From Lachnospiraceae bacterium (GTDB lineage: Bacteria; Bacillota; Clostridia; Lachnospirales; Lachnospiraceae), in NCBI GenBank assembly GCA_022793065.1, contig JAAWCE010000073.1, positions 1 through 64,000 of the forward strand: a stretch of DNA of 64,000 nucleotides. Reading direction: 5' to 3'. A program made the position numbers and the translations under genes. Below are positions 10,387 through 17,448 of this stretch, piece after piece. The notes below the pieces were generated by a model. It had not been told where the DNA came from, did not search any database, and saw nothing but the letters and a program-made list of their open reading frames with translations. Within the stretch, counting starts at the first letter, position 1; each line of letters starts with the position of its first letter.

Positions 10387-11157
10387 TTATCTCCTTTCAG
10401 TCTGCCCAAAACGGATGCAGGAAATACCAAAACATATCATAGTAATCAGAAAAGCAATAGGTATCCAGGGGATCAATTCCACTTGTGCTGTGTTAAGCCT
10501 GGCGGCAAGCTTTCCATATTCGGCTGTGATTACAAAGAATGGGTAGGACATGGGATAAGCAAACCACAGTTTTGTGTTAATCATTAATACCGAAGGTACA
10601 ATGGATGCCAGGCCGATACAGACGGAGAAAATAGGGGTCTGAATACATACGGACAACATCCAGAAGAAAGCAATCATAGGTATGGCGGATAAAAACAACA
10701 AGCCAATTTCTTTCACAACAAATATGGGGGGCAAAATAAAATTGTAGTCCTGTGCTGCAGAACAGATTGCGGCGCTGATGTAATACATACATGCCATCAT
10801 GATAATCTGTGTGATTGCCAGCACAAGCAACACGATAAACTTTGCCAAACAGAGTGCTGCCCTCTGAATGGGCAAAGCAAGCATTTTTAAAATACCTTTA
10901 TTTGACCTTTCCGTTTGGCTCAAGAGAACGGTCCCGACCACCATACTTGCAGGGAACATAAACCATGACATTCCCATAAAACCCTGAATAAAGAAGTTAT
11001 GTTCCGGGGAAATGCCCTCCGCTTCCATATGAAAGTTTAATTGTACATTCAGAATGGACGGTATCCACAGGATAACGGTTGCCGCAAGCAAAATAAAAAG
11101 TATTTTAGATCGTTTTAGCTTCCGAAACTCAACGCTCACAAGGGATATGAAATTCAT
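10387..11157 (-). CDS. Lantibiotic-protection-type ABC transporter permease (MutG/BcrB-like)
   Basis: Six-TM profile, SVEFRKLKRSKILFILL start, tandem with a second permease and ATPase. Confidence 0.8.
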   Translation of the reverse strand: MNFISLVSVEFRKLKRSKILFILLAATVILWIPSILNVQLNFHMEAEGISPEHNFFIQGFMGMSWFMFPASMVVGTVLLSQTERSNKGILKMLALPIQRAALCLAKFIVLLVLAITQIIMMACMYYISAAICSAAQDYNFILPPIFVVKEIGLLFLSAIPMIAFFWMLSVCIQTPIFSVCIGLASIVPSVLMINTKLWFAYPMSYPFFVITAEYGKLAARLNTAQVELIPWIPIAFLITMICFGISCIRFGQTERR

Positions 11158-11876
11158 GCACCCCACCTCCTTACACGTATCAATATTAGTTCTGCCAGGC
11201 CCAAAACTATCAGTTCTGCGGCAGTTGCGCAGACAAACCTCATACTCCATGTCATATCGGCGTTCATAAATATCTGAAACGGCGCTGCAAAAGGAAATAG
11301 TGAAAGAATAAAGTTATTTGGGGGCAGCATGGTTGCAGTAAAGACAAAGATAACGCCCATGCCCAGCGATATCCACATATTCTTGCAGCTTTGCGAAATA
11401 AGGAGCGACAGCACAATACAGGGCAGCATCAGCCAGAAGGCATATGCAAAACTTTTGCATAGTTCACTCCAAAAGGTATTTTGAATTTCAAACCATTTAT
11501 AAGCACAGAATGTTATTGCTCCGGCTTCTATTGCTAACATAAGGGTGCTCATGAAAATGGTCAGGATTGCCTTCCCAAAGAAGACGGAGCTTTCCCGTAC
11601 AGGGAGAGACTTTATCTTCTGTATGGCATTGTCGGCATATTCTGTATGATATAGAAGACAGGTTCCGGCAACAATAAACAATACATTTAACATTGCCATC
11701 ATCTGCCAGTTGGCATCCAGCAAAATTTGAATGGGATTTCCCGACACTACAACATACGTTTTCCAGCGAATGGTCATATTGAGTACCGGCACGGCTGCGG
11801 CTAAGATACCGCCGCATAAAAGCGCGGGGAAAAAACCGGTTCGTTTCAACTTAATACATTCCAGGGAAATGCTCAT
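11154..11876 (-). CDS. Lantibiotic-protection-type ABC transporter permease (MutE-like)
   Basis: MSISLECIKLKRTGFFPALLCGGILAAAVPVLNM start typical of this family; overlaps its neighbours by 4 nt. Confidence 0.8.
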   Translation of the reverse strand: MSISLECIKLKRTGFFPALLCGGILAAAVPVLNMTIRWKTYVVVSGNPIQILLDANWQMMAMLNVLFIVAGTCLLYHTEYADNAIQKIKSLPVRESSVFFGKAILTIFMSTLMLAIEAGAITFCAYKWFEIQNTFWSELCKSFAYAFWLMLPCIVLSLLISQSCKNMWISLGMGVIFVFTATMLPPNNFILSLFPFAAPFQIFMNADMTWSMRFVCATAAELIVLGLAELILIRVRRWGA

Positions 11877-12628
11877 CTTACAACACCTCTTTTCTGATTG
11901 TCGGAATTGATCAGGGCCAAGAAGGTATCTTCCAGGTTATCTGTGGGATATCCACTGGAAGCAGCGCTGCTTTTTAGCTCATCCAGCGTTCCCTCAAACA
12001 GCATATGTCCATGATTTAGAATCCCCACATTGTCAGCCATCAGTTCTATTTCAGAGAGCAGATGTGAGGATACCAGAACAGTACAATCGAATTTTTCAGG
12101 CAGAGAGCGGATGAGGGTTCTTATTTCATGAATTCCCACAGGGTCAAGGCCGTTTGTGGGCTCATCCAGAATCAAAATCGGCGGTTTCCCTATCAATGCA
12201 CTGGCAAGTCCTAATCTCTGTTTCATGCCGAGAGAATACTTTTTGGCAAGCCGTTTCTTAAACTGTGTCAGACCTACAATTTCCAACGCCTCTTCCACGG
12301 AAGACTTTGGAAGGCCCAAGATTTTACGGATAATTTCAAGATTCTCCTCACCGCTTAGATTTCCGTAAAAGGCAGGGGCTTCGATAAATGACCCCACTTC
12401 TTTCAAAATTTCCACTCTGTTTTCAGGGTACCTCTTCCCATTTATGGTAAACGAACCGTCTGTAGGTTTGGTAAGCCCCAAAAACATCTTCATTGTGGTG
12501 GATTTTCCCGCGCCGTTGGGACCCAGGAATCCGTAGACGGTGCTTTTGGGAATATGCAGATTAATGCCCGCAACTGCGGTGAAATCTGCATAAGATTTGG
12601 TTAAATTTGTGGTTTCAATGATATTCAT
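11873..12628 (-). CDS. Lantibiotic-protection-type ABC transporter ATP-binding protein (BcrA/MutF-like)
   Basis: Walker A GPNGAGKST, signature SLGMKQRLGLA, Walker B ILILDEPTNGLDP. Confidence 0.9.
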   Translation of the reverse strand: MNIIETTNLTKSYADFTAVAGINLHIPKSTVYGFLGPNGAGKSTTMKMFLGLTKPTDGSFTINGKRYPENRVEILKEVGSFIEAPAFYGNLSGEENLEIIRKILGLPKSSVEEALEIVGLTQFKKRLAKKYSLGMKQRLGLASALIGKPPILILDEPTNGLDPVGIHEIRTLIRSLPEKFDCTVLVSSHLLSEIELMADNVGILNHGHMLFEGTLDELKSSAASSGYPTDNLEDTFLALINSDNQKRGVVR

Positions 12629-12888
12629 TTTTATACTCCTTTCGTCTGGCTGTAAATTCATTGTACTTTTTCAACCTTGCATTAACCTTCCCGTGTCCTT
12701 ACATTTACCTTACATTTTGCTAAAACCAGAAAAAAGAGGATATTTTTGTGGTATGATCTTTTTGTACCATGGTATAATGTTGACACCAAAAAGCATGGAG
12801 TCAACTATTGATTCCATATGCGCTTAAAGAGGGGTGTTTACACACCCTCTTGCGTATGAGCATAGAGGATTTATTGAGAGGTACCCAA

Positions 12889-13593
12889 ATGAGCATTGAT
12901 TACCTGAAACAAAAACGTATATTGCTTGTGGACGACGAGCAGGAGCTTTTAGAAATGGTAGTATCTATTTTAAACCAGGATGGATTTCTAAATATTAGGA
13001 CGGCGAAAACGGTAAAAGAAGCAGTTATGATTTCAGAAACCTTTTGTCCGGAATGTGCAATTCTCGACGTAATGCTTCCTGACGGCAACGGTTTTGAGCT
13101 TATGGAACGTTTAAAAAGTCTTTCGGATTATCCCATATTGTTTCTGACGGCCCGCGGAGAAGATGAGGACAAATTTCGAGGGTTTGGTCTGGGAGCGGAT
13201 GATTATATGATAAAACCATTTTTACCAAAGGAACTTCTCTTTCGTGTCAATGCGATTCTCCGCAGAAGTTATAAAGATGAAAATCCCCTTGTAAAACTGC
13301 GGGACAGCGAAATTGACTTTGACCGTGCGGAAGTCATTCAAAATGGGCGTCACATTTCTCTTACGGCAAAGGAATATGCGATCCTTGCCGCACTCTATCG
13401 AAATGCAGGAAGAATCGTTACCATTGACGCTTTGTGTGAAGCCGCCTGGGGAGACAATCCTTTTGGATATGAGAATTCTTTGATGGCGCACATTCGGCGC
13501 ATCAGAGAGAAAATTGAAGCCAATCCCTCCCGGCCTGTTTCGCTTATCACCATTAAGGGATTGGGATATAAACTTATGGTGGGGGAAAAATAA
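12889..13593 (+). CDS. OmpR-family response regulator
   Basis: RILLVDDEQELLEM receiver, Asp in AILDVMLPDGNG, winged-helix C-terminus with IRRIREKIE...TIKGLGYKL. Confidence 0.92.
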   Translation: MSIDYLKQKRILLVDDEQELLEMVVSILNQDGFLNIRTAKTVKEAVMISETFCPECAILDVMLPDGNGFELMERLKSLSDYPILFLTARGEDEDKFRGFGLGADDYMIKPFLPKELLFRVNAILRRSYKDENPLVKLRDSEIDFDRAEVIQNGRHISLTAKEYAILAALYRNAGRIVTIDALCEAAWGDNPFGYENSLMAHIRRIREKIEANPSRPVSLITIKGLGYKLMVGEK

Positions 13594-13594
13594 T

Positions 13595-15016
13595 ATGAAA
13601 AGTATGCCTAAACTATTGCGGCGCTTTGTTGGCATTTTGCTTTTGGCGTCAGTTTTGCTGATTATTTTAAACTTGATCTTATTATTCCTGTTTACCGTAA
13701 ACCAAACATCCAACGCGCATCCTTGGAAAACTGCTGAGGAAGTTGCCAATGAATTAAGCTGGAATACCAACGGTTATATTTTGTCTGAAGAGTTGGCGCT
13801 TGAATTAAAGGAAGCAGATGTATGGGGAATTTTCATTGACAATGTCTCAATGAAAGTGGTGTGGCGGACGGACAATCTTCCACCGTCGGTGCCTGTGACC
13901 TATTCTGCTGCGGATATTGCAAATCTGACTCGTGGTTATATAGACGGATATCCCACATTTACAGGAGAAGCACAAGATGGACTGGTGGTATTGGGATATC
14001 CTAGAGAAAGTTTTTGGAAACATATGTGGCCTAGCTGGGATTACCAATTTATTGCTAATTTCCCCAATATCTTTCTGAAAATATTCATAATTAATATTGT
14101 GTTTGTTTTTATAATCTATGTAAGCGCCAACACAAGACTACTGAAATCTGTAAAACCCATTGTGGATGGTATACAATCATTGCCCACAAAAGAAGCTGTT
14201 TACGTCAGTGAAAAAGGAGTGTTGTCTGAGCTTGCGGTAAGTATTAACAAGACTTCGGAAATATTGCAGTCTCAAAACAATCAGCTCCGCAAGAGAGAAA
14301 CTGCAAGAGCAAATTGGATTGCAGGAGTATCCCATGATATACGCACGCCTTTGTCAATGGTTATGGGTTATGCAGGGCAGTTGGAAAATGAAAAACATTT
14401 ACCGGAAGAAGACCGCAAGAAAGCGGAGGTGATTGTAAGGCAAAGCCAGCGAATAAAAAATCTGATTCAGGACCTTAACCTTGCATCTAAATTAGAATAT
14501 AACATGCAGCCCATAAATGTCACAAAGCAAAATTTGATAGCTGTTGTGCGTCAGGTTGCTGTTGATTTTATGAATATGGACATAGAGGAAAGACACCCTA
14601 TTCTATGGGAAACAGAAGGGACCTTCACTGTTTGTCTTGCAGATATTGACAGGGACTTAATAAAAAGAGCGGTAAGCAATTTGATTCAAAACTGTATCAA
14701 TCATAACGAACAGGGGTGCCATATCTATGTCTGTGTGACCGAGGAGGATGGTAAGAGTACGATAACGGTTGCTGATGACGGTGTGGGAACATCAGAGGAA
14801 CAAATTGAAAAGCTCAATCATTTGCCTCATTATATGGTTTGTGATGAAAATACGACAAAGCAGCGCCATGGACTGGGGCTGCTGATTGTCAGGCAGATTA
14901 TGTCGGTACACAACGGTATCACCAGGATTGGACGCAGCCCATACGGCGGATTTTCTGTTCAACTGATATTACCCACAAAGAATAGAGACAATGAGATAAA
15001 AAATCTAAAAAAATGA
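13595..15016 (+). CDS. Sensor histidine kinase (lantibiotic-responsive type)
   Basis: Two TM segments, H-box GVSHDIRTPLSMVMGYA, ATP-binding VADDGVGTS and HGLGLLIVRQI. Confidence 0.92.
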   Translation: MKSMPKLLRRFVGILLLASVLLIILNLILLFLFTVNQTSNAHPWKTAEEVANELSWNTNGYILSEELALELKEADVWGIFIDNVSMKVVWRTDNLPPSVPVTYSAADIANLTRGYIDGYPTFTGEAQDGLVVLGYPRESFWKHMWPSWDYQFIANFPNIFLKIFIINIVFVFIIYVSANTRLLKSVKPIVDGIQSLPTKEAVYVSEKGVLSELAVSINKTSEILQSQNNQLRKRETARANWIAGVSHDIRTPLSMVMGYAGQLENEKHLPEEDRKKAEVIVRQSQRIKNLIQDLNLASKLEYNMQPINVTKQNLIAVVRQVAVDFMNMDIEERHPILWETEGTFTVCLADIDRDLIKRAVSNLIQNCINHNEQGCHIYVCVTEEDGKSTITVADDGVGTSEEQIEKLNHLPHYMVCDENTTKQRHGLGLLIVRQIMSVHNGITRIGRSPYGGFSVQLILPTKNRDNEIKNLKK

Positions 15017-15207: not shown

Positions 15208-15343
15208 TGTGCATTTCAAGACGAAAATGTGCAGACAAAAAGTGTGTGCCCCGTCTTTTCTGTGCACGAACTTTGTGCAAGTTCGGCAAAAAATGTGCAT
15301 AAAGAGTATATCTATTGCATGCACAAAATGTATGTCCTATAAT
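15208..15343 (+). promoter_or_regulatory. TGTGCA motif array plus sigma-A-type promoter upstream of the HTH-PIN gene
   Basis: TGTGCA at 15208, 15228, 15261, 15274, 15294 and inverted TGCACA at 15320; TTGCAT(15315)-17 nt-TATAAT(15338). Confidence 0.7.
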
Positions 15344-15382
15344 GGGGACGTGTAATCAAAAAATACAAAAGGGGGTTTCGTT

Positions 15383-16345
15383 ATGGACAGTACCGTAATG
15401 GAATTGGCAAATATTGGCAGGACTATGGCAAGAATTCGTAAATCGCAGACAGTAAAATGGACACAGGCTGCGGTGGCAGATAAATTGGGCGTGGAAAGGT
15501 CGGTCTATGCCAAATATGAAAGCGGCCAAGTAAAGCCGTCTGGGGAAGCCATAAAAACATTTGCTGATATATTTCATGTAAAGGAAGAAGAGCTAATCAA
15601 ACAAGTATCCATTGTGATACCCGACACATCTGCATTGTTAAAAAATAAAAGACTACTGAATTTATTGTTGGAAGACTACAATGAAGTTGTAATACCGGAC
15701 ACTGTACAGATTGAATTGAATAGAGCAAAAGACAAAGGGAATAAAGCAGGATGGCAGATTTTAATGTCGATTCCGGAATTTAGAAAAAATTATCCTGATA
15801 AGTTCAAAATAGAAAAAAGTGAGCATTTGAAGGAAGAAAGCAGGGATGCAAAAATTCGTCGTCTTGCTGCCGAGATAGAAAAGAAGAAAAAGGTAGATGT
15901 CTATATTGTCCATGACGATACCAGTTTTACGAATATGTATGACAGAAGTATTCTGCTTAGAGATTATATGGCGTCAAGAAGTAAGAATCTGCATTATGCG
16001 ACAATTCTGGCGTTGGATGAAGAATACCGGAACTTTAACGCGGACTATTATAAAGAAGCCGGGCAGTGGAATCTGGATGAATATCTGCCGGATGGACTGA
16101 CTTTATTAATAAGCTGTATCAGGCATAATTATGATATAAAGAAAGGGAAGAAAAAGGGTGAGCTTGTGCCAGATTCTGACAGAATGAATAAAATTCGCTT
16201 TTTGTTAAAACATGGTGCGGATATCAATAAAACAGATGGAAAAGAATTTTGCTTTACACCATTGGCTCACTGTGTTCAAATAGATGATTTTCAGGCGTTT
16301 TGTCTTTTGCTGGGATTTCTATGTCATGGACAATCCTCCCAGTAA
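15383..16345 (+). CDS. XRE-type HTH + PIN-like nuclease domain + ankyrin-repeat protein (possible frameshifted fusion with the next ORF)
   Basis: HTH WTQAAVADKLGVERSVYAKYESGQVKPS; PIN-like VIPDTSALLKNKRLLNLLLEDYNEVVIPDTVQIELNRAKD; ankyrin-like MNKIRFLLKHGADINKTDGKEFCFTPLAHCVQ. Confidence 0.75.
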   Translation: MDSTVMELANIGRTMARIRKSQTVKWTQAAVADKLGVERSVYAKYESGQVKPSGEAIKTFADIFHVKEEELIKQVSIVIPDTSALLKNKRLLNLLLEDYNEVVIPDTVQIELNRAKDKGNKAGWQILMSIPEFRKNYPDKFKIEKSEHLKEESRDAKIRRLAAEIEKKKKVDVYIVHDDTSFTNMYDRSILLRDYMASRSKNLHYATILALDEEYRNFNADYYKEAGQWNLDEYLPDGLTLLISCIRHNYDIKKGKKKGELVPDSDRMNKIRFLLKHGADINKTDGKEFCFTPLAHCVQIDDFQAFCLLLGFLCHGQSSQ

Positions 16346-16952
16346 TTTGTTTGATGATATCTCGGACATATTAAGCTTTATAAAAAAGATTACAGAGGGC
16401 TTTAGCTGTAGTACATATGCCAGGAAATGTGCAGACAAAATTTTGAAGAGAAGTAAGTCTGACGTTATTGTACTTTTGGATGGGGATAAGACGCTTACGA
16501 TGGAAGATAGCAGTACTGTATTCGGGTACAGCACAAATCTTTATGACGGCAATTTTTATACTGGGTATCAGACATGGAAGCAGAAAGAGGAATTTAGAAG
16601 GTATAGAATTCCTGATATAAAATCCATGCCAGTTCCACTGAACAGGCATATATGCTGCCGTATTACCAAAGATTCTTATATTCTAACATCTGGGCATGAA
16701 GAAATATGGCAATATATTGCGGGCGAACTAAAGATTCCCTTTTATGGGGGAAGTGAAATGTCTGCAGAGACAAAGTTTTATATAACAAAGTATCTGCAGG
16801 AAGCCGGGAGAAAAGTGGAAGCATATGGGGATGGCATGAATGATTATTTTATGTTAAAGCAGGCGGATGCGGGATACCTTGTAACAAAACGGGATGGTTC
16901 TGTAAGCCGCTCATTAAAAGGAAGAGATATGGAGGGGTTGATATATGTATGA
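16284..16952 (+). CDS. HAD-superfamily phosphatase
   Basis: Motif I VLLDGDKTLT (DxDxT), motif II ILTSG, motif IV YGDGMNDYFMLKQAD; true start uncertain. Confidence 0.8.
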   Translation: MIFRRFVFCWDFYVMDNPPSNLFDDISDILSFIKKITEGFSCSTYARKCADKILKRSKSDVIVLLDGDKTLTMEDSSTVFGYSTNLYDGNFYTGYQTWKQKEEFRRYRIPDIKSMPVPLNRHICCRITKDSYILTSGHEEIWQYIAGELKIPFYGGSEMSAETKFYITKYLQEAGRKVEAYGDGMNDYFMLKQADAGYLVTKRDGSVSRSLKGRDMEGLIYV

Positions 16953-17448
16953 GTTAGCGAAAAGTGAAGAAGTGAAAAGGTTGATTGCAGCCGCCAAATC
17001 CGATTCTGGCGTAGCTGGGCCAGAACTGGCAAAAATCCATATGCGGTTAGGAGAATTGCTGGCAGGGGAAATGGAGGGATTTTATCCGGCAGATACGACA
17101 ATTGTGGCTATACTTCGGGGCGGAATCTTTTTTGCTGAAGGAATTTATTTTAGGCTCAACTGTCGATTCCAGACATATGACCCAAAGCATGAAGCGTTTA
17201 TCAGACCGAATACGCCAAATGTGATTATTGTAGATTCTGTGATTAATACGGGGAAGACCATAGAGAAGATTATAGACGACAGCATGACCATTGCCTGTTG
17301 TGTAATCAATGAAAAAGCGGCGCCCCTGTTCCACAGGCAGCTATATACGGTGAGAGTATCAAAAAATTCTTTTGTGGGATGTGATGTAAAAAAACAGTCT
17401 GGGAACCGGGGACCAGATACAACCATGCGGTTGTTTAACCAATTGTGA
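16945..17448 (+). CDS. Type I phosphoribosyltransferase
   Basis: PRPP-binding motif NVIIVDSVINTGKTIEK and TTIVAILRGGIFFAEGI; overlaps the HAD ORF by 8 nt. Confidence 0.85.
   Translation: MYELAKSEEVKRLIAAAKSDSGVAGPELAKIHMRLGELLAGEMEGFYPADTTIVAILRGGIFFAEGIYFRLNCRFQTYDPKHEAFIRPNTPNVIIVDSVINTGKTIEKIIDDSMTIACCVINEKAAPLFHRQLYTVRVSKNSFVGCDVKKQSGNRGPDTTMRLFNQL

Follow-up and report, generated by a model that had tools for sequence, protein, structure and literature searches.

At positions 15208-17448 of the 64,000-nt stretch of Lachnospiraceae DNA analysed here (hereafter the window), a gene for a DNA-binding, PIN-type nuclease is followed by genes for a HAD phosphatase and a phosphoribosyltransferase (PRTase), which raises the question of whether these genes constitute a complete module, as the original prediction proposed, and what such a module might do. 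The three overlapping, same-strand ORFs were present as predicted, and the boundaries fit the locus, as 15208 corresponds to the first half-site of an array upstream of the promoter. The features of the locus are as follows:

15208-15325, + strand: predicted operator array, with TGTGC half-sites at 15208, 15228, 15261, 15274 and 15294 (spacing 20/33/13/20) and an inverted GCACA at 15321
15315-15343, + strand: predicted promoter, TTGCAT (15315-15320), 17-nt spacer, TATAAT (15338-15343)
15383-16345, + strand: ORF1, HTH-PIN-ankyrin protein, cut short within the ankyrin domain (relatives ~430-460 aa)
15449-15595, + strand: HTH_3 domain of ORF1 (residues 23-71; Pfam, 38.6 bits)
15617-15922, + strand: PIN_4 domain of ORF1, RNase fold (residues 79-180; Pfam, 29.0 bits, gathering score 21.9)
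16184-16312, + strand: ankyrin repeat(s) left in ORF1 (residues 268-310; Pfam Ank_4, 26.3 bits)
16284-16952, + strand: ORF2, the HAD phosphatase part of a kinase-HAD protein whose kinase half is lost; true homology starts at 16314
16310-16316, + strand: putative deletion junction CTGGGAT, with ankyrin sequence to its left and kinase-HAD sequence (DFYV...) to its right
16945-17448, + strand: ORF3, PRTase with PRPP loop VDSVINTGKT (Pfam PF00156, 28.4 bits); uracil-PRTase-like fold predicted from relatives

Domain content and promoter of the window locus

The predicted union of HTH, PIN and ankyrin segments in one polypeptide was borne out, as all three domains of ORF1 scored above their Pfam gathering scores, the ankyrin part being a truncated repeat domain. 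The HAD assignment of ORF2 was upheld by its main motifs (DGDKT, TSG, K and GDGMND), which are (nearly) invariant among relatives, the Pfam HAD match itself being weak and below threshold (18.2 versus 20.9 bits). ORF3 passed the Pfam Pribosyltran gathering score (26.3), and the modelled structure of a naturally fused relative (see below) showed the expected PRTase fold, of the uracil-PRTase (UPRTase) type. Full-length matches for ORF1-3 were found in neither PADLOC nor NCBIfam. A single promoter, likewise predicted, is backed by conservation: its position relative to the array and a TATAAT-like box recur in three other loci (L009, L010 and L059). A generic promoter scan did not list it because of its weak -35 element.

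The intact four-gene operon and its distribution

The co-conservation of these genes elsewhere was confirmed by an intact operon at 13 other loci, nine in host genomes (L009, L010, L043, L044, L045, L046, L047, L061 and L077) and four on IMG/VR contigs (L056-L059). In all of these, the order is PIN-ankyrin, radical SAM, kinase-HAD and PRTase on one strand, with gene ends mostly overlapping by a few bases. The two closest relatives of the window copy, L009 and L010, both from Lachnospiraceae metagenome-assembled genomes, encode an HTH-PIN-ankyrin protein of 431 aa, a radical SAM enzyme of 273 aa, a P-loop kinase-HAD protein of 355 aa and a PRTase of 167 aa, whereas kinase, HAD and PRTase form a single protein in L044 and L045. 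Including its promoter, the cassette spans ~4 kb. The candidate module thus stood as regards its domains and its organization as a single operon, while it proved incomplete, as the intact form adds a radical SAM enzyme and a kinase domain and thereby changes the predicted chemistry.

Among family genomes, the cassette was identified in ~6/397 (about 1.5%), based on long PIN-ankyrin matches; in the PIN-ankyrin family search, only the top few matches are true relatives, the HTH alone accounting for most of the 195 genomes. Three of 61 genomes of the genus carry it, as do three of 391 in the class sample (two from the window's genus, including the window's own genome), and the single carrier among 399 genomes of the phylum sample is the window itself. 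The four IMG/VR contigs were all recovered with both the radical SAM and the kinase-HAD profile, three of them with the PIN-ankyrin profile, which additionally found L069, a contig that ends inside the PIN-ankyrin gene, and one of them with the PRTase profile. Because these profiles recover nearly the same contigs, the cassette genes are considered to travel together. Plasmid and INPHARED phage records contained no relatives of the kinase-HAD or radical SAM proteins, and plasmid records none of the PRTase. Literature searches, whose coverage largely excludes subscription papers, returned no description of this gene combination. The operon is a previously undescribed, mobile element with a rare and patchy occurrence in gut Lachnospiraceae.

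Probable internal deletion in the window copy

Sequence comparison with L009 and L010 revealed that 1566 bp present in both relatives are absent from the window at 16312/16314, comprising the last ankyrin repeats, the entire radical SAM gene and the kinase domain. ORF1 tracks these relatives up to residue 310 (72% identity to L009 and 70% to L010), after which it ends in ten unrelated residues, while ORF2 matches residues 135-355 of the 355-aa kinase-HAD protein of L009. As the junction has only 1-3 bases in common with the two ends of the missing stretch, it looks like an illegitimate join, and the 62-nt overlap of ORF1 and ORF2, together with the start of ORF2 inside ankyrin coding sequence, is on this comparison a product of the deletion. 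Judged from sequence, the window locus is an internally deleted copy of the four-gene operon and not a complete module. It is probably inactive, altered or only partly working and, with the radical SAM and kinase parts gone, most likely unable to run the pathway; as such, it illustrates the decay of such modules.

The three-gene form might instead be a functional compact variant, composed of an HTH-PIN-ankyrin protein of reduced length, a separate HAD phosphatase and a PRTase. All three ORFs are open and retain their active-site residues, the operator array is likewise intact, and purifying selection is indicated by codon comparisons, although such estimates chiefly reflect the time before the deletion. 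Furthermore, 1566 is divisible by three and both source frames agree in the relatives, which places the junction one base off an in-frame PIN-ankyrin-HAD fusion. However, the three-gene form was absent from all other genomes searched, ORF1 terminates in unrelated residues and ORF2 lacks a gene start of its own, which renders such a variant quite improbable.

A second alternative, that the strain possesses an undeleted cassette, of which 1.6 kb were skipped when the contig was assembled, draws on the fragmented state of the window genome (142 contigs, 91.5% completeness and 4.9% contamination) and on the differing affinities of its genes. The PIN-ankyrin part is nearest to L009 and L010, while the HAD part of ORF2 is most similar to L046, from the same genus as the window (67% identity), followed by L057 (65%) and L059 (64%), as would be seen in a two-strain chimera. 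Similar mixing of nearest relatives occurs among the other loci, for which reason sensor and enzyme genes of the cassette seem to have been exchanged between loci. Against misassembly, the 1-3 bp shared at the junction do not constitute a repeat of misleading length, no trace of the missing kinase and radical SAM sequences turned up elsewhere in the 4-Mb window assembly, and the flanking sequence consists of continuous chromosomal genes; an artefact is thus regarded as unlikely, and a genuine deletion is preferred. ORF3 is 58-67% identical to ten of its relatives, 52% to L047 and 42-44% to the two fused forms.

The MerR-MATE gene pair adjoining the window copy is conserved in five genus mates lacking the cassette at that site, on the basis of which the window cassette is interpreted as an insertion at the MerR/MATE site. 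The region just upstream (10387-15016) encodes ABC transporter components and a paired response regulator and histidine kinase, possibly an antimicrobial-peptide resistance unit and unrelated to the cassette.

Operator arrays and the associated NERD nuclease gene

The array of the window consists of six in-phase half-sites, the last of which, the inverted GCACA, lies at the -35 region and abuts the -35-like TTGCAT; an additional, off-phase TGTGC is located at 15245. The core of this lattice (15274-15325) is found nowhere else in the 4-Mb window genome, even when one mismatch is tolerated. This lattice, with steps of 20/13 and then 27, also precedes the operon in L009, L010 and L059, the flanks of which are unrelated. 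In a second group of loci (L044, L045, L046, L056, L058 and L077), the half-site is GTTGC, spaced in 20/30 steps and followed after 33 bp by an inverted GCAAC, and the PIN-ankyrin proteins of this group are only ~30% identical to those of the first. Half-site and spacing thus change with the protein, as expected if the array is that protein's own predicted binding site. The number of half-sites before the operon was reached by none of 5000 shuffles in eight of ten loci, and no match to the lattice occurred in 191,580 bases of control sequence.

The lattice was also identified between the PRTase gene and a following NERD-nuclease gene (PF08378) in L045, L046, L056, L058 and L059. As matching arrays occur before the operon in unrelated contexts and also before the NERD gene, the HTH protein most likely autoregulates its own expression and controls a predicted two-operon regulon consisting of the cassette and the NERD gene. 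A view of the NERD gene as plain prophage baggage was set aside, since the shared operator array argues for common regulation. Nevertheless, this gene is not a required part of the cassette, as it is missing from eight of the 14 loci; it also occurs without the cassette (L091). Two of the four NERD-bearing family genomes are among the six cassette genomes of the 397 (hypergeometric P 0.001, with genomes counted as independent).

Several further observations concern these elements. In L057 (5480-7983), tandem PIN-ankyrin genes are present, the second of which lacks the HTH; a third type of operator (TGTGCC) precedes this second gene and also the NERD gene. L092 is a relic in which a lattice match precedes a truncated NERD gene. 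The genes glyS-ppdK are followed by the cassette in G623 (L061:1608-9922) and by the lattice and truncated NERD gene in G360 (L092:5747-6467); the position after glyS-ppdK is read as a shared insertion site, holding one intact and one decayed element. Downstream of the NERD gene, a conserved protein of ~70 aa is encoded in four loci (L058:11902-12114, L056:6155-6370, L059:12173-12385 and L045:4350-4565), the L058 copy of which has no Pfam or PHROGs match. In L059, the operator lattice and the NERD gene are separated by a gene (10497-11069) whose product, judged by eye, resembles a zinc-ribbon membrane protein. L091 (7606-12245) has a relative of NERD but neither cassette nor lattice, and next to this relative lies a gene for a 1143-aa protein whose start resembles a protein kinase.

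Predicted enzyme folds and chemistry

AlphaFold/Foldseek analysis of a natural fusion protein (mean pLDDT 86) suggested that its N-terminal domain resembles adenylate kinases (TMt up to 0.71) and its C-terminal domain uracil PRTases (TMt about 0.6-0.66). These modelled folds of the kinase and PRTase domains point to nucleotide chemistry, with which the HAD phosphatase fits. The radical SAM enzyme contains nine invariant cysteines, three forming the CxxxCxxC cluster and five situated in the C-terminal region, and was assigned to the SPASM/twitch type by fold search. Its structure model (mean pLDDT 83) was closest to SPASM-type peptide maturases and anaerobic sulfatase maturases, with viperin in the second tier. 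Profile scores were likewise highest for peptide-modifying SPASM enzymes, so that a peptide or protein may be what it acts on.

The resemblance of this enzyme to maturases and not to nucleotide enzymes, together with C-terminal cysteines as found in SPASM/twitch enzymes, would also agree with a peptide- or protein-modifying system, whose radical SAM enzyme would act on a peptide or on the PIN-ankyrin protein itself, with a nucleotidyl or phosphoribosyl group supplied to this target or taken off it by the kinase-HAD and PRTase proteins. However, a conserved ORF for a small precursor peptide was not found between the mostly overlapping genes, and the kinase and PRTase domains have nucleotide-type folds. 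Small twitch enzymes, such as BtrN, use small molecules as substrates, and the radical SAM enzyme shows a weak match to BtrN. Peptide modification is consequently given a low probability relative to nucleotide chemistry.

The fusion of a P-loop kinase with a HAD phosphatase in one chain is shared with T4 polynucleotide kinase-phosphatase (Pnkp), and a nuclease is encoded in the same operon, which would suit a system of RNA damage and repair, where the kinase-HAD protein would heal the ends of tRNA or phage RNA cleaved by PIN. T4 Pnkp did appear in the fold search, albeit at ranks 47-48 and with a weak match (E 1.8e-3, TMt 0.26), adenylate kinases being far closer in the predicted structures. 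As RNA repair would also leave the PRTase and radical SAM enzymes without a role, and no ligase is present, it is considered very improbable.

Genomic company and proposed function

The intact cassette occupies prophage cargo slots in at least two IMG/VR loci. In L058, profile-supported assignments place it immediately downstream of genes for tail, holin and endolysin proteins and ahead of a serine integrase gene, and ORF reading indicated the same prophage order in L057. Among host-genome copies, Wadjet JetABC adjoins the copy in G1205 and DdmD/DdmE-like genes that in G110, AbiLi-like and Nhi/AbiO-like genes lie near the G336 copy, and the C-terminal part of the type I restriction subunit HsdR, cut by the locus edge, is located ~4 kb from the cassette in L010. 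PADLOC-type genes were thus found near four of the nine host-genome loci (window excluded), a count not set against matched random loci, and the neighbours entering the first PADLOC check had been chosen by eye. Five host loci (L009, L043, L044, L061 and the window) have housekeeping neighbours and no recognized defence genes nearby. Patchy distribution, mobile context and company of known defence genes are the features of a prophage- or island-borne defence module in general, and a defensive role is proposed here through guilt by association; the suspicion of a conflict system in the original prediction accordingly holds.

From operon structure, domain content, deletion, operator arrays and genomic company, all of which the sequence itself shows, we infer repression, a metabolite, RNA cutting and defence, and the reading that we favour, with moderate confidence, is a mobile four-gene operon directed against mobile elements (anti-phage), which pairs nucleotide chemistry with a PIN effector and of which the window holds an internally deleted copy. 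The HTH-PIN-ankyrin protein would bind the phased half-site array over its own promoter, acting as a repressor and latent ribonuclease. The radical SAM enzyme with its extra C-terminal cysteine cluster, the nucleoside-monophosphate-kinase-like domain fused to the HAD phosphatase, and the uracil-PRTase-like enzyme are the second, third and fourth components of the intact operon, and in some carriers a NERD nuclease gene with the same array follows. The PRTase, kinase-HAD and radical SAM proteins may make, modify or remove a nucleotide-like molecule, with the ankyrin part sensing a product or substrate of this pathway, directly or via a partner. Infection would shift the balance, and this molecule or its loss would free the ankyrin-PIN protein, upon which PIN would cut RNA; operator-controlled operons would then open, including that of the NERD nuclease where present.

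A more specific proposal is put forward as tentative and rather doubtful: that the cassette represents a new immune system, in which the radical-SAM/adenylate-kinase-like/HAD/PRTase pathway makes a novel modified nucleotide that holds or releases the DNA-bound HTH-PIN-ankyrin sensor-nuclease on its phased array, with the co-regulated NERD nuclease as second effector. If the favoured anti-phage reading is right, an undescribed defence module that hints at novel nucleotide chemistry resides in gut Lachnospiraceae and in their prophages, and its regulator unites promoter binding with ankyrin repeats and a nuclease within a single polypeptide. The cassette would be easy to test, being small, available in a natural fusion form and equipped with a clear operator readout.

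Comparison with known systems

Among PADLOC 2.0 system models, only partial matches to the HTH, PIN, ankyrin or radical-SAM-core regions were obtained. The cassette shares with VapBC a PIN nuclease, a DNA-binding domain and promoter operators, yet its PIN domain lies between HTH and ankyrin repeats in one polypeptide of ~430 aa in every locus, the enzyme genes are co-transcribed, no small partner ORF was seen in the loci and a separate antitoxin gene is absent; VapBC was therefore rejected, and the toxin-antitoxin reading of the original prediction is not supported.

In the Ter-associated pathway for a nucleoside-like metabolite (Anantharaman, Iyer and Aravind 2012, via PMC7824862 and PMC5512222), a PRTase and a HAD phosphatase likewise belong to a mobile operon related to conflict, for which a nucleotide-type product has been proposed. 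The partners in the cassette are instead a radical SAM enzyme and an adenylate-kinase-like domain. The previously suggested kinship with this pathway was not sustained, as TerD (PF02342) is absent from six of eight carrier genomes and located on another contig in the remaining two. By reading of the neighbourhood ORFs, no ATP-grasp or TIM-barrel partner was seen. In the window genome (G000), a TerD gene cluster is located at C8:114060-116888, on a contig other than that of the cassette.

As in prokaryotic viperins (pVip), a small radical SAM enzyme is found beside a nucleotide-kinase-like domain, and this enzyme showed a second-tier structural match to viperin 5vsm (TMt 0.70) and a PADLOC pVip match of 1.3e-11. 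Assignment as a viperin was rejected, with NF038283 scores of 37.9 bits (L009) and 54.2 bits (L058) against a cut-off of 180, and the cassette differs from pVip in its extra C-terminal cysteines and its PRTase, HAD and PIN-ankyrin partners.

Finally, DS-3 and DS-5, PIN-domain anti-phage systems reported with DefensePredictor (PMC13092281), resemble the cassette in that a PIN ribonuclease is the likely effector and a classical antitoxin is lacking. The cassette is distinguished from these systems by the HTH and ankyrin repeats within the PIN chain and by the nucleotide and radical enzymes encoded in the same operon.
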